The notes under the pieces were generated by a model. It did not search any database. It saw only the letters and a program-made list of their open reading frames with translations, and had not been told where the DNA came from. Source: Sphingosinicella sp. (lineage in GTDB: Bacteria; Pseudomonadota; Alphaproteobacteria; Sphingomonadales; Sphingomonadaceae). Taken from it: a stretch of DNA of 64,000 bases. The translations under genes were made by a program, and so were the position numbers. This document shows positions 16,092 through 31,132 of this stretch, piece after piece (position 1 is the stretch's first letter; every line of letters starts with the position of its first letter). The DNA lies in NCBI RefSeq assembly GCF_013911755.1, contig NZ_JACESP010000003.1, positions 124,001-188,000 on the forward strand. Direction: 5' to 3'.

Positions 16092-16168
16092 CGGGGAGTA
16101 GCGCAGCCTGGTAGCGCATCTGCTTTGGGAGCAGAGGGTCGCAGGTTCGAATCCTGTCTCCCCGACCA
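16092..16168 (+). tRNA. tRNA-Pro(TGG), integration target
   Basis: A complete cloverleaf of 77 nt with encoded CCA: acceptor CGGGGAG/CTCCCCG, anticodon stem TCTGC/GCAGA with loop TTTGGGA (anticodon TGG), and TTCGAAT T-loop. The last 23 positions are repeated at 31110-31132, marking it as the attachment site of the downstream element, which leaves the tRNA intact. Confidence 0.96.
16146..16168. repeat. attL direct repeat
   Basis: Twenty-three positions at the tRNA-Pro 3' end, 22 identical to 31110-31132. The core ATCCTGTCTCCCCGACCA (16151-16168) is a perfect 18-bp match. The single mismatch is A here against C in the right copy, in the tRNA T-loop; this copy has the functional base. Confidence 0.9.
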
Positions 16169-16207
16169 CCTCTTAAAAATGGCTGATTTCTGCGGTTTTT
16201 AGAGAGC

Positions 16208-16243
16208 GCTCTGTAGCAAGTTCTGTAGCGACCTCTGTAGCAA
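16208..16243. repeat. Left-end triple repeat, candidate integrase arm sites
   Basis: Three direct copies of CTGTAGCAA-like sequence at exact 12-bp spacing (16211, 16223, 16235), 40 bp inside attL. The first 22 bp of the block are identical to 31009-31030 near attR. Repeats flanking the core on both sides fit arm-type binding sites of a lambda-class integrase; that role is inferred. Confidence 0.65.
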
Positions 16244-16290
16244 ATATGAACGGAATTGAGGCGAGCCGTGCCGCGTCGCGCGCTACGTTC

Positions 16291-16319
16291 TTGAAGAACA
16301 AAATAAGAACATTTATCCT
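16291..16319 (+). promoter_or_regulatory. Candidate promoter with embedded LexA (SOS) box
   Basis: TTGAAG (16291-16296), a 17-bp spacer and TATCCT (16314-16319). Inside it lies GAAC-AAAATAA-GAAC (16296-16310), the alphaproteobacterial LexA operator pattern GAAC-N7-GAAC. LexA bound here would block the promoter, so the gene at 16352 should be induced by DNA damage. Confidence 0.65.
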
Positions 16320-16351
16320 CGCGCTGATTCTGTAAGCGCCGAGGTATGACC

Positions 16352-16549
16352 ATGCACCACGACACCGCTTTGCGTGCGGCTGCACGCGCGATCTTCGAGA
16401 ACGTCTATCCCGGCGATGATTGGTCGCCGGTGACCTTCGATGAGGCGGAACGCTTTCGGACGGTCCACTACCGCAACGCGGTCGAGGCGGCACGCATGGC
16501 GCGCGCCTGCTTCACGCCGGAGGGGGCGCGGCAGTTGGCGTTGTTATAG
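16352..16549 (+). CDS. Small protein under the SOS-type promoter
   Basis: Unknown 65-aa protein (MHHDTALRAAARAIFENVY...), partly helical, with no recognised domain. The ATG at 16352 has GAGGT six bases upstream; ATG 16346 is in frame but touches the Shine-Dalgarno. It is the only plus-strand gene at the left end of the element, just inside attL, behind a promoter holding a LexA-like box, and it ends before a strong terminator. By position it could be an excisionase, antirepressor or induction switch, but nothing in the sequence shows which. Confidence 0.55.
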   Translation: MHHDTALRAAARAIFENVYPGDDWSPVTFDEAERFRTVHYRNAVEAARMARACFTPEGARQLALL

Positions 16550-16559
16550 GCAGAAATGA

Positions 16560-16587
16560 AAGGGGCGATCCGTCAGGATCGCCCCTT
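16560..16587. terminator. Bidirectional terminator
   Basis: Stem AAGGGGCGATCC with loop GTCA and a perfect complement, between the plus-strand small gene and the minus-strand PEP-CTERM gene. Confidence 0.8.
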
Positions 16588-16610
16588 CAAGTTCTGAGTG
16601 TACGGGATCG

Positions 16611-28668: not shown

Positions 28669-28882
28669 TCCGGTCCGTTCCCTCTGAGAACGCCGGGCGG
28701 GCTGTTTAACCGCAAACCACGCGGTGCCGTTATCGACGGCAAGTCGAAAGTTTCACCATGATAACGAAATGGGACTGAAAAGGGAAGGGGGGATTTCGTG
28801 GAGAACACCGACGAGGTTAAAAACATATACAAAAAACGGGCGCAGCCTGTTTTCGAAGAAAACAAAAATCAGATAATTTTTT

Positions 28883-28926
28883 GAATCTTAGATTCTGATT
28901 CTGAATCTTGAATCTGATTCTGAATC
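28883..28926. repeat. Cluster of seven GANTC (CcrM methylation) sites
   Basis: GANTC occurs at 28883, 28891, 28897, 28903, 28910, 28916 and 28922, at 6-8 bp spacing. GATTCTGAATC occurs twice as a direct repeat (28897 and 28916), and the sites form nested palindromes such as GAATCTTAGATTC. GANTC is the site of the alphaproteobacterial cell-cycle methylase CcrM; about 0.2 sites would be expected by chance in this length. Confidence 0.8.
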
Positions 28927-29147
28927 CTAGAGTTATATATATATATTTATATAAATATCACGCGGGCGCGCGGGAAAGGAAAAACACTCCGAAAATGAGG
29001 GCATTGTATCCTCGCCGGAGTTGGAGGATATTCCATCGGCGGAGTTCGATAGATCGCGGCGTTGATGCTGGATCGTTTAATTTCCCGGCGAGCGCGAATC
29101 GCCCCGATAATGCAATCTCAATACGTCAAATTTTGCCCGGCAAGGCC

Positions 29148-29213
29148 CCGCCACGCGTCGATGTTAATGCGTCGGCTGCCTGACAGCAGAATTTTATTAT
29201 CGATGCGTGGCGG
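29148..29213. terminator. Long inverted repeat after integrase
   Basis: Arms CCGCCACGCGTCGAT (29148-29162) and ATCGATGCGTGGCGG (29199-29213) pair at 14 of 15 positions around a 36-nt loop. It lies 15 bp after the integrase stop. It may terminate integrase transcription or be a protein-binding site. Confidence 0.45.
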
Positions 29214-29228
29214 TATCTTAAAACCCGC

Positions 29229-30995
29229 CTAATGCGATGTCGGTTTTTCGGCAGGAATGAGGTGTTCAAACTCGACGCCTTCGAATTTCACGGACGAAAT
29301 CATTTCGAGAATCATCTGCGCAGTGCCCTCGCGGAGTTGGCCATAACCGCTCGTCACGGTCTTGTTCGAATGGCCGAGGATCAGCGCGCCGATTTCATCG
29401 TCTCGATAATTTGCTTTGCGGAGTTCGTCGGCCATTGTGTGACGAAACGAATGCGTGCCGATACCGTCCGCGCCGCGCTTGGCCCCGATCGCCGCGAGGT
29501 AGTCACGCCAGAAGCGCGAGGGTGTCGCGCCGACTTGGCCGCGCTTGTCCGGCTTGATCTCTGGAAATAGAGGGCGATCCTGCTCTCCATTCAGATTCAG
29601 AATTGCGCGTTCGTTGTTCACGAACTCGACAAAGCCGAGTTTTTCTAACGTCGGATGAACCGCCACGTGCCGTCCCTGCTTGGATTTCGTCCGCTGATTG
29701 GTTTTCTCGTCCTCCTTGATGAAGATGAAATATGCGTCCTGCACCTTCCGCACGTCATTCACGAGAAGCTGCGCAATCTCGCCGATGCGCGCGCCGGTGA
29801 ACAGGCAAACGAGTGGTATCCAATAGCGCCAGTCGTCGGCGTGCTTGTTTCCTGCGCGGTGTTCCTCCCCATGAGCAAGGAAGCCAGTGAATAGCGGAGA
29901 TTTCAGAATGGTGTTGAGCTGATCCTTATCGAGCGGCGGGCGTGGATTCTTTCCCTTGATTTTCTTTGTATTGATGGTCAGCCCGGCGAACGGAAACGAC
30001 GATATCTTGTTTTTGTTGTTCAGCCATTTGAAGAACGGCGAGACGGTCGAAAGGTAGCGCGCTTGCGTGATCGTCGAAAGCCGATTGGCGTTCAGACGGT
30101 CGGCCTTCTCGATTGCTTGGTGAATGTTTAGACCGCGATAGTCCTTCTTTTTCGAATAGCTCGTCGGGATGCGGGGAAGGGCGTCGCGATACGCTACCGC
30201 ATCGTCGCGTGTGATGCTGCTCGGTGCGCGGTCCTTGCCGACGAACTCCGCGAATTGCGCGATGACGACGCGGTCCGGTGCAATGCCGTCGGCGCGCTTG
30301 TCGCCCTCGCTGACACATTCGCGCGCGTATTGTTCGAACAGCTCCATGATAGCCTCGCCGGGCTTGGCCTTGGCTGCTGTGCGCTTCTTGACTTCCTGCA
30401 CGAGTGGCGAAGCTGGGGCGGCGTCATACTGGCCTTCGATTTCGGCGGCGGTGACGCGGTGCGCGTCGAGACTTGCCGTCGCGAGGTGGCGGCAGAACAA
30501 GCCGAAGTCGTCGGAGTTGGTCGAGATTTCCCAGCCGAGGCGATCGGCGATACGCCTTGCCGTAGGCGCAATCTGCGAAAAGTCGCCAGTGGCGACCTGT
30601 TGCGCACGTAACGCTAGCTTCGCTTTGCGCTCGGTTACGTGTTCGGCCCACTTGTCCGGCGAGACGCCGCGTAGCTGCTTTCTGCTGCGCGCAATGAAAT
30701 CGGTGTACTGATCGTAACCCCATTCCACTGCCGCCTGCTCAATCTCAGCGACCGAAGGCATGTGCTTCGTGATCGCCGGTGTCGCCGGTGTGTTCTCTCG
30801 GTCGCCTGCATCCCATTCGGCTCGCCACGCCGCGATGATGGGGAGGGCTTTGCGCTCGGCAAGCTGGCGATCGGTCGTGCCAAGTGACTTGATGCGCTCG
30901 CGTGGACCGCCAAGGGTTTGCCGCTGGCGTGGGACAGCAATGCGCACATGCCACGTTCCCCTTTTGCCACGCTGAAACAGGTGCTGCGAAATCAT
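29229..30995 (-). CDS. int: Tyrosine site-specific integrase (DUF6538 type)
   Basis: Inserts and excises the element at tRNA-Pro. A 588-aa recombinase: DUF6538-like N terminus (FQRGKRGTWHVRIAVPRQRQ), a core-binding SAM-like domain around SITRDDAVAYRDALPRIP, and catalytic residues R in FTGARIGEI, HSFRH (HxxR), LGHSNKT, and Y in SGYGQLREG. Start MISQHLFQRGKRG is the family start; the frame is open far upstream through the arm-site repeats and attR, which is not coding. It is adjacent to attR, transcribed inward. Confidence 0.93.
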   Translation of the reverse strand: MISQHLFQRGKRGTWHVRIAVPRQRQTLGGPRERIKSLGTTDRQLAERKALPIIAAWRAEWDAGDRENTPATPAITKHMPSVAEIEQAAVEWGYDQYTDFIARSRKQLRGVSPDKWAEHVTERKAKLALRAQQVATGDFSQIAPTARRIADRLGWEISTNSDDFGLFCRHLATASLDAHRVTAAEIEGQYDAAPASPLVQEVKKRTAAKAKPGEAIMELFEQYARECVSEGDKRADGIAPDRVVIAQFAEFVGKDRAPSSITRDDAVAYRDALPRIPTSYSKKKDYRGLNIHQAIEKADRLNANRLSTITQARYLSTVSPFFKWLNNKNKISSFPFAGLTINTKKIKGKNPRPPLDKDQLNTILKSPLFTGFLAHGEEHRAGNKHADDWRYWIPLVCLFTGARIGEIAQLLVNDVRKVQDAYFIFIKEDEKTNQRTKSKQGRHVAVHPTLEKLGFVEFVNNERAILNLNGEQDRPLFPEIKPDKRGQVGATPSRFWRDYLAAIGAKRGADGIGTHSFRHTMADELRKANYRDDEIGALILGHSNKTVTSGYGQLREGTAQMILEMISSVKFEGVEFEHLIPAEKPTSH

Positions 30996-31008
30996 ACCTA
31001 CGCCCCTT

Positions 31009-31044
31009 GCTCTGTAGCAAGTTCTGTAGCAAGTCGTGTAGCGG
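31009..31044. repeat. Right-end triple repeat, candidate integrase arm sites
   Basis: CTGTAGCAA at 31012 and 31024 and GTGTAGCGG at 31036, the same 12-bp spacing and orientation as at the left end. The first 22 bp match 16208-16229 exactly. It lies between the integrase start and attR, so it probably also overlaps the integrase promoter. Confidence 0.65.
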
Positions 31045-31109
31045 GTGTCATTATAAGTCTTTGAAAACGCGCGACTCATTGCGATTCCTGTGTCAAGGGG
31101 CTTGTTGGA

Positions 31110-31132
31110 TTCGCATCCTGTCTCCCCGACCA
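31110..31132. repeat. attR direct repeat (tRNA-Pro 3' fragment)
   Basis: Copy of the tRNA-Pro 3' end, 22 of 23 positions identical to 16146-16168, with an 18-bp perfect core at 31115-31132. It ends the element. The T-loop base is C instead of A, as would be brought in by the element's own attP. Confidence 0.9.

Follow-up and report, generated by a model that had tools for sequence, protein, structure and literature searches.

Capsid-forming satellites of bacteriophages are a recent discovery, and a regulator of the phage-inducible chromosomal island (PICI) type and a primase are features of the capsid-forming PICIs (cf-PICIs). As described in PMC10690885, cf-PICIs are chromosomal elements that encode the large terminase subunit (TerL), the portal, the major capsid protein (MCP), and connectors, while a helper phage supplies the tails; their capsids form three clades, according to PMC11389934. 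The Streptomyces satellites MulchRoom and MiniFlayer (17.4 kb for MiniFlayer) carry a module for small terminase subunit (TerS), TerL, portal, scaffold, and MCP and have no primase (PMC10690885). Here we analyzed a stretch of 64,000 nucleotides from Sphingosinicella sp. (contig NZ_JACESP010000003.1, positions 124,001 to 188,000; called the window below and numbered from its first letter), which holds an element of about 15 kb in a tRNA-Pro gene. This element is very probably a living, capsid-forming phage satellite.

The host gene of insertion is tRNA-Pro(TGG) at 16092-16168. Its 3' end contains the first attachment (att) repeat (16146-16168, plus strand), which is identical at 22 of 23 bases to a second repeat (31110-31132, plus strand), and the two enclose 14,964 bp. 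The repeat pair and the tRNA-Pro(TGG) call bear out the ~15-kb element in tRNA-Pro that an earlier note on this DNA had described.

Twenty open reading frames (ORFs) of the element were scanned against the Pfam and PHROGs hidden Markov models (HMMs). All genes named here lie on the minus strand. In that direction, a tyrosine integrase with DUF6538 (29229-31079; PF00589, phrog_1; likely ATG start) is followed by TerL (26776-28464; PF03354, phrog_9), which is conserved across relatives in an alignment, and by the portal gene (25410-26702), assigned from position, conservation, and a weak match to phrog_104 (6.5e-4), with no Pfam match. The portal HMM PF04860 found nothing in the whole genome; that is, the model misses the portal of this element. 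Next are a scaffold-like gene (25060-25398; likely ATG at 25398) with no Pfam or PHROGs match, whose putative role follows from its position; the MCP gene, of the GP7 type (24138-25037; PF20911; phrog_212, 6e-80); the head-tail adaptor gene Ad1 (23445-23966; phrog_477, 3e-26); and a head morphogenesis gene of the MuF/gp7 type (22426-23448; phrog_3517, with PF04233 below the cut-off). Two small genes (o133 and o123), two unshared genes, a serine resolvase gene, and cargo complete the order. None of the 20 ORFs matched a tail, lysis, primase, or repressor family, and the tail and lysis modules of a complete tailed prophage were not found among them. The sole name suggestive of replication was Pfam DnaT_2 ("putative DnaT-like," 7e-17), given to Ad1, which PHROGs names a head-tail adaptor; in phage records, genes like Ad1 are annotated under either label.

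The earlier note had listed integrase, TerL, portal, scaffold-like, capsid, connector, and head morphogenesis genes and had recognized no tail, lysis, replication, or repressor gene. The HMMs agree on both counts, with the portal match weak and the scaffold placed by position. Its statement that the head genes are intact and coupled also stands: the frames are open, and the ORF ends bear out the ATGA overlaps at 23445 and 22426. Of its "SPP1-like, protease-free head set," the second part held, as none of the 20 ORFs scanned matched a protease, whereas "SPP1-like" fits loosely, the MCP being of the PF20911 (GP7) type.

The element resembles cf-PICIs in encoding MCP, portal (by a weak match), head-tail connector, and TerL in the absence of tail genes. 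It differs in that none of the 20 ORFs scanned matched a head maturation protease, HNH endonuclease, primase, or AlpA-type regulator and in having a scaffold-like gene, a PF20911-type capsid, and cargo around a serine resolvase. Its integrase gene adjoins TerL, and the TerS candidate comes last in the head operon, which sets it apart from the gene order of cf-PICIs. On the basis of these differences in gene content, we file the element, which would work like a cf-PICI, as a separate lineage of capsid-forming satellites.

MulchRoom and MiniFlayer share with the window element a TerL-portal-scaffold-MCP module, to which the window element may add a TerS of its own (o123), and the presence of capsid genes without a recognized replicase. 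In contrast, they have terminal repeats and HNH, and MiniFlayer has a tail fiber and lacks an integrase. The comparison covered TerL, MCP, and TerS of MiniFlayer against the family profiles and gave no detectable homology (hhalign probabilities of 4.4%, 0.3%, and 0.2%, respectively); for TerL, the aligned part was a stretch of 44 columns that surrounds a P-loop-like motif. The MCP of Paenibacillus phage Unity is 47% identical to that of the window (hhalign 100%), and other phages share the same capsid family. However, Unity, a phage of 50 kb, carries genes for a Clp protease, tail assembly, and a tape measure, and its TerL and TerS have no detectable likeness to the family. A literature search found no publication on this lineage, and the original cf-PICI work may list some of its elements.

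Between the att repeats lie the element's own head, packaging motor, and connector genes, and this set is conserved at about 15 kb in several genomes. A search with the MCP found a relative in the same bacterial family at 84% identity (G229). Eleven loci were found in GTDB genomes, from Sphingomonas jeddahensis, S. endophytica, Sphingomonas sp. Leaf412, S. tagetis, S. kyeonggiensis, S. psychrolutea, Sphingomonas sp. Ag1, Erythrobacter sp. QSSC1-22B, Brevundimonas guildfordensis, a Dokdonella metagenome-assembled genome (MAG), and a gammaproteobacterial MAG. All 11 keep the order TerL-portal-scaffold-MCP, with an integrase match in 8 and an o123 match in 10; two are on short contigs or have a partial TerL, and L025 is a 3.9-kb fragment. 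The tRNA at the far end is tRNA-Pro(TGG) in six of these loci, tRNA-Ser in Brevundimonas, and a duplicated tRNA-Cys in Dokdonella. The core TGGTCGGGGAGACAGGAT is common to all seven tRNA-Pro elements, the window's included; the second repeat shares an 18-bp core with the six others.

From att to att, the window element of 14,964 bp compares with 15,617, 15,056, 15,305, 14,562, 15,484, 14,849, 13,834, 14,725, and 15,677 bp in nine others (mean of the ten, 15.0 kb), where the 14,725-bp Dokdonella element was bounded by the duplicated tRNA and the 15,677-bp element of genome G497 by an 18-bp repeat. Lengths this close to one another would be expected if the head is of fixed size. Related ~15-kb elements at tRNA-Pro, the check that the earlier note had proposed, are therefore present in six other Sphingomonadales genomes. 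In the order, an MCP match occurred in 3 of 396 genomes, namely, this one, G229, and G288; the last (27% identity, E 1e-4) was rejected as too remote to be a family member.

Known phages and plasmids were searched for the same genes. In 50,697 phage records, tblastn gave no match to TerL at E 1e-5, to the portal at 1e-3, or to o123 at 0.1, and TerL had none in 72,556 plasmids. A scan of IMG/VR with the TerL profile found 61 loci, 60 of them on contigs of at most 19.3 kb; many of these are fragments, so that length alone leaves room for a longer parent, and none is of phage size. On the one longer contig (50,960 bp), the element adjoins an apparent T7-like prophage, whose separate integrase, polymerase, and capsid genes were named by eye from the protein sequences rather than by HMM. 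This contig was rejected as a full-length relative because the adjoining genes look like a separate prophage with its own integrase. Close relatives that are full-length tailed prophages, which the earlier note had named as the finding that would speak against a satellite, were seen neither in the phage records nor in the IMG/VR scan. Along with the HMM null for tail and lysis genes and the tRNA-Pro relatives, this supports the capsid-forming satellite that the note had suggested.

In a maximum-likelihood tree of MCPs, one branch (support 95/78; 96% of 200 bootstrap trees) separated 67 family rows from 12 phage MCPs. The rows, which include L072, L078, L010, and L011, represent 58 distinct sequences, with nine identical pairs, some of which appear to be one genome in two collections. 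The phage MCPs were hand-picked from the matches, and a closer phage may exist outside the set.

The TerS of the element may be o123 (123 amino acids [aa]; 21697-22068), which is the best candidate on the basis of its conservation across the family (alignment of 13), its position in distant kin, and its fold ranks. A homologue sits before TerL in the distant kin L067 and L074 and, by eye, in L078, with a MuF-like gene between. In a library of viral folds, the o123 model (pLDDT 80) ranked terminase small subunits at 1, 3, 4, and 14, but with E values of 0.2 to 1.2; no TerS family was matched by HMM, and nothing in the PDB was significant (best E, 0.85). The neighboring o133 (22058-22429) is conserved and, like o123, predicted to be helical. 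Four relatives were scanned for domains on the homologue, and at least three of them have a C-terminal LacI-type helix-turn-helix DNA-binding domain there (three in the scan), which is missing from the window copy. The o133 model (pLDDT 71) had one viral match with E below 0.001, to an uncharacterized protein, and its better matches had no named function; o133 may be a regulator or a packaging aid.

Clustering of the ORFs of 13 elements, four of them incomplete contigs and with antisense and out-of-frame clusters set aside by eye, identified the genes shared by at least 10: integrase, TerL, portal, scaffold, MCP, Ad1, MuF, o133, o123, and resolvase. These results bear on whether the element is a small autonomous phage whose tail proteins are too divergent to recognize. 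Several proteins have no assigned role (o133, o223, and o141), and more distant kin have a tape measure gene, both of which favor such a phage. However, conservation without a named role is limited in the window to the scaffold-like gene, o133, and o123; each encodes less than 125 aa, and the latter two are predicted to be helical. The other genes are private or common to two or three elements, which leaves no room for a conserved tail module, and no lysis gene was recognized. Among 39 accessory proteins hand-chosen from nine att-delimited elements, the window's included, no tail or lysis name appeared in the 25 of 33 PHROG families listed. We consider an autonomous phage very improbable.

Selection on the head genes was examined through the nonsynonymous and synonymous substitution rates (dN and dS). 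Between L016 and L017, dN/dS was 0.039/0.58 (~0.07) for TerL, 0.043/0.68 (~0.06) for portal, and 0.025/0.80 (~0.03) for MCP. Five other pairs gave 0.05 to 0.11 for TerL, 0.06 to 0.10 for MCP, and 0.02 to 0.16 for portal, so that all six pairs span 0.05 to 0.11 for TerL and 0.03 to 0.10 for MCP; Ad1, MuF, and integrase evolve faster. Pairs with the window are near saturation (against L006, the dS values of TerL, portal, and MCP lie between 1.4 and 2.5), and their ratios are less telling. Such purifying selection implies that heads are still made, or were made until recently, in several lineages. A decaying prophage, deprived of tail, lysis, and replication genes and no longer able to leave the chromosome, is very unlikely. 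Decay does occur in the group, as seen in a TerL fragment with two stops (G062) and a TerL gene with a TGA (L053), and the window copy lacks a small gene found between MCP and Ad1 in relatives. Against decay, however, stand the dN/dS values below 0.1 for all three genes of L016 and L017, the open head genes of the window, the same core genes at near-equal length in the same tRNA of seven genomes, and the failure to see a close relative with tails.

The cargo lies after o123 and flanks the resolvase on both sides. In relatives it includes N6, N4/N6, and C5 methylases, a type II restriction enzyme, a Shedu nuclease, a reverse transcriptase, a PIN-domain protein, DUF4062, and a weak GHKL-ATPase match below the Pfam cut-off. 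A few cargo genes are common to two elements, and the rest of the cargo is private. The variable segment around the resolvase probably carries defense genes, represented in the window by a nuclease of the Mrr type (17564-18427; PF04471, 1.7e-5). PICIs likewise carry and spread immune systems, according to PMC11364771.

Such cargo would also suit a domesticated defense island, in which the capsid, portal, or terminase genes would act against phages that enter the cell and the element would have ceased to travel in particles; some systems carried by satellites can prevent the assembly of phage tails, as reported in the same source (PMC11364771). This is highly unlikely given the conserved integrase and att sites, and the narrow length range and scattered occurrence favor packaging and transfer. 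Many residues of TerL are moreover invariant, presumably those with motor and nuclease roles. The presence of an integrase and att sites led us to reject a gene transfer agent as well.

The best reading of the sphingomonad-family elements is that they are a lineage of capsid-forming, helper-dependent satellites, akin in logic to cf-PICIs and the Mulch and Flayer satellites, whose helper, particles, and mobilization we infer from sequence. In the cycle that we propose, the growth of a tailed helper phage would lead the integrase to excise the element, and helper or host enzymes would replicate it, as suggested by the lack of a recognized replicase in the sphingomonad branch. For the Mulch and Flayer satellites, replication by the helper or host has also been proposed (PMC10690885). 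The putative TerS o123 and TerL would then pack the DNA into small heads whose capsid, scaffold, and portal proteins the element itself encodes. Helper tails would attach by way of Ad1, joined in some relatives by another small protein; helper lysis would release the particles, and the DNA would integrate at tRNA-Pro of the next cell. Ad1 has weak phage matches, for example, to Pseudomonas phage 73 (29%, E 8e-3), which we take to be long-tailed, and these hint at a long-tailed helper.

Several observations weigh against a helper-dependent, tailless satellite. The particles, excision, and transfer of the satellite are predictions from its genes. Three probes of the host genome revealed no helper prophage, as PF03354 matched only the TerL of the element and PF10145 and PF05065 matched nothing; any helper would then have to be virulent, absent, or unrecognized. 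Few genomes hold kin of TerL: the counts are 2 of 385 in the class and 2 of 398 in the phylum, with this genome included in both and one of the others a remnant with stops. Relatives of the MCP occur in 283 phage records, all below 60% identity and at best 47%. The window copy also lacks the small MCP-Ad1 gene found in 8 of 13 elements.

Also adverse is the gene content of the wider family. The accessory scan covered 93 of 147 non-core ORFs from 20 of 21 loci, with likely antisense, flank, and duplicate ORFs left out by eye, and its results are the 25 of 135 PHROG families listed; a separate survey took non-core ORFs of at least 380 aa in 77 loci. At least 5 of the 93 proteins matched a head maturation protease (phrog_595), and at least 4 matched primases or helicases. 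A "protease-free, replicase-free" description thus fits the branch of the window rather than the whole family. The primase-bearing kin L067 (to which L069 is nearly alike) and L074 resemble the window element in TerL (46 to 48%) and MCP (61 to 62%), in the portal-scaffold-MCP order, and in having an o123 homologue; they differ in carrying a primase-helicase (Toprim plus DnaB in L067, D5 in L074) and in having o123 before TerL.

Tail genes occur in the distant kin L100, L072, and L078, all of which fall within the MCP clade, so that this clade is not purely tailless. Among the families listed, 2 of the 93 ORFs matched tape measure proteins, in L100 and, by E values, L078 (L078:12035-13723, near the end of its contig). 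L072, a 9.3-kb fragment outside the 93-ORF set, has a tape measure gene and a piece like tail fiber J (L072:5770-9238). L072 and L078 may be parts of tailed phages. L100 (G497:C3:498911-514588) is att delimited at 15,677 bp, and its gene for a tape measure protein of 1,177 aa (L100:2426-5959) is an exception to any strict absence of tail genes across the wider family.

The L100 tape measure gene is the most unusual thing in the data set. It overlaps the stop codon of o133 (TGATG) and is followed by o123, which couples it into the capsid operon. The protein resembles those of phages of 84 to 122 kb (29 to 42%, among the 20 of 450 phage records listed) and also matches a PHROG labeled endolysin (1e-48). 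There is no second copy in its genome, G497. No further tail gene was recognized in L100, where a 231-aa ORF had no match and ORFs of 155 and 81 aa lay outside the HMM scan. We tentatively raise, while holding it somewhat doubtful, the broader proposal of an unreported, independent satellite lineage in Alpha- and Gammaproteobacteria with its own head and motor, lacking replicase and tail in its sphingomonad branch and adding in some members a tape measure gene to the capsid operon. If so, a member with a tape measure would dictate the length of the borrowed tail or would itself seed tail assembly; the literature search returned no title or abstract on tape-measure takeover of a helper tail pathway.

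The sequences suggest a separate satellite lineage, in sphingomonads and some relatives, that carries antiphage systems. With TerL and portal absent from the phage records searched, tools built on known phages may miss the family. Named carriers (Sphingomonas sp. Leaf412, S. endophytica DSM 101535, and S. kyeonggiensis DS2008) make the question of the helper directly testable.

The remaining features of the element are minor. A repeat containing CTCTGTAGCAAGTTCTGTAGC lies inside both ends (16208-16241 and 31009-31042, plus strand), as would be expected for integrase arm sites. The G+C content in 2-kb windows is 0.45 to 0.64 in the element and 0.62 to 0.70 in the flanks; the head genes (22 to 26 kb; 0.60 to 0.64) are near the host value and not set off, and the ends of the element are low. 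The 223-aa (20754-21425) and 141-aa (20212-20637) proteins, with no assigned role, are private compared with 12 other elements, and the serine resolvase/invertase (19360-19998) is common to 12 of 13. A small lipoprotein-like protein (18492-18815) matches phrog_2315, a family without assigned function, and a PEP-CTERM protein (16611-17216; PF07589) is cargo close to the attachment site. The resolvase, the Mrr-type nuclease, and the PEP-CTERM protein add to the gene list of the earlier note.

In relatives, the small gene between MCP and Ad1, which may serve in head closure, had no significant HMM match in the two copies scanned; besides the window (23967-24137), it is absent from Brevundimonas and G497. 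A gene of 312 to 314 aa lies between integrase and TerL in three Sphingomonas elements (L018:5088-6032, L026:5042-5986, and L017:5061-5999), and the L018 copy had no significant family match. A decayed copy consisting of a TerL fragment with two stops lies at G062:C1:932560-932901, in the same bacterial family. At L053 and L084 (G396), one TGA interrupts the TerL of an element that stands beside an apparent T7-like prophage, possibly a helper pair or a mere tandem insertion.

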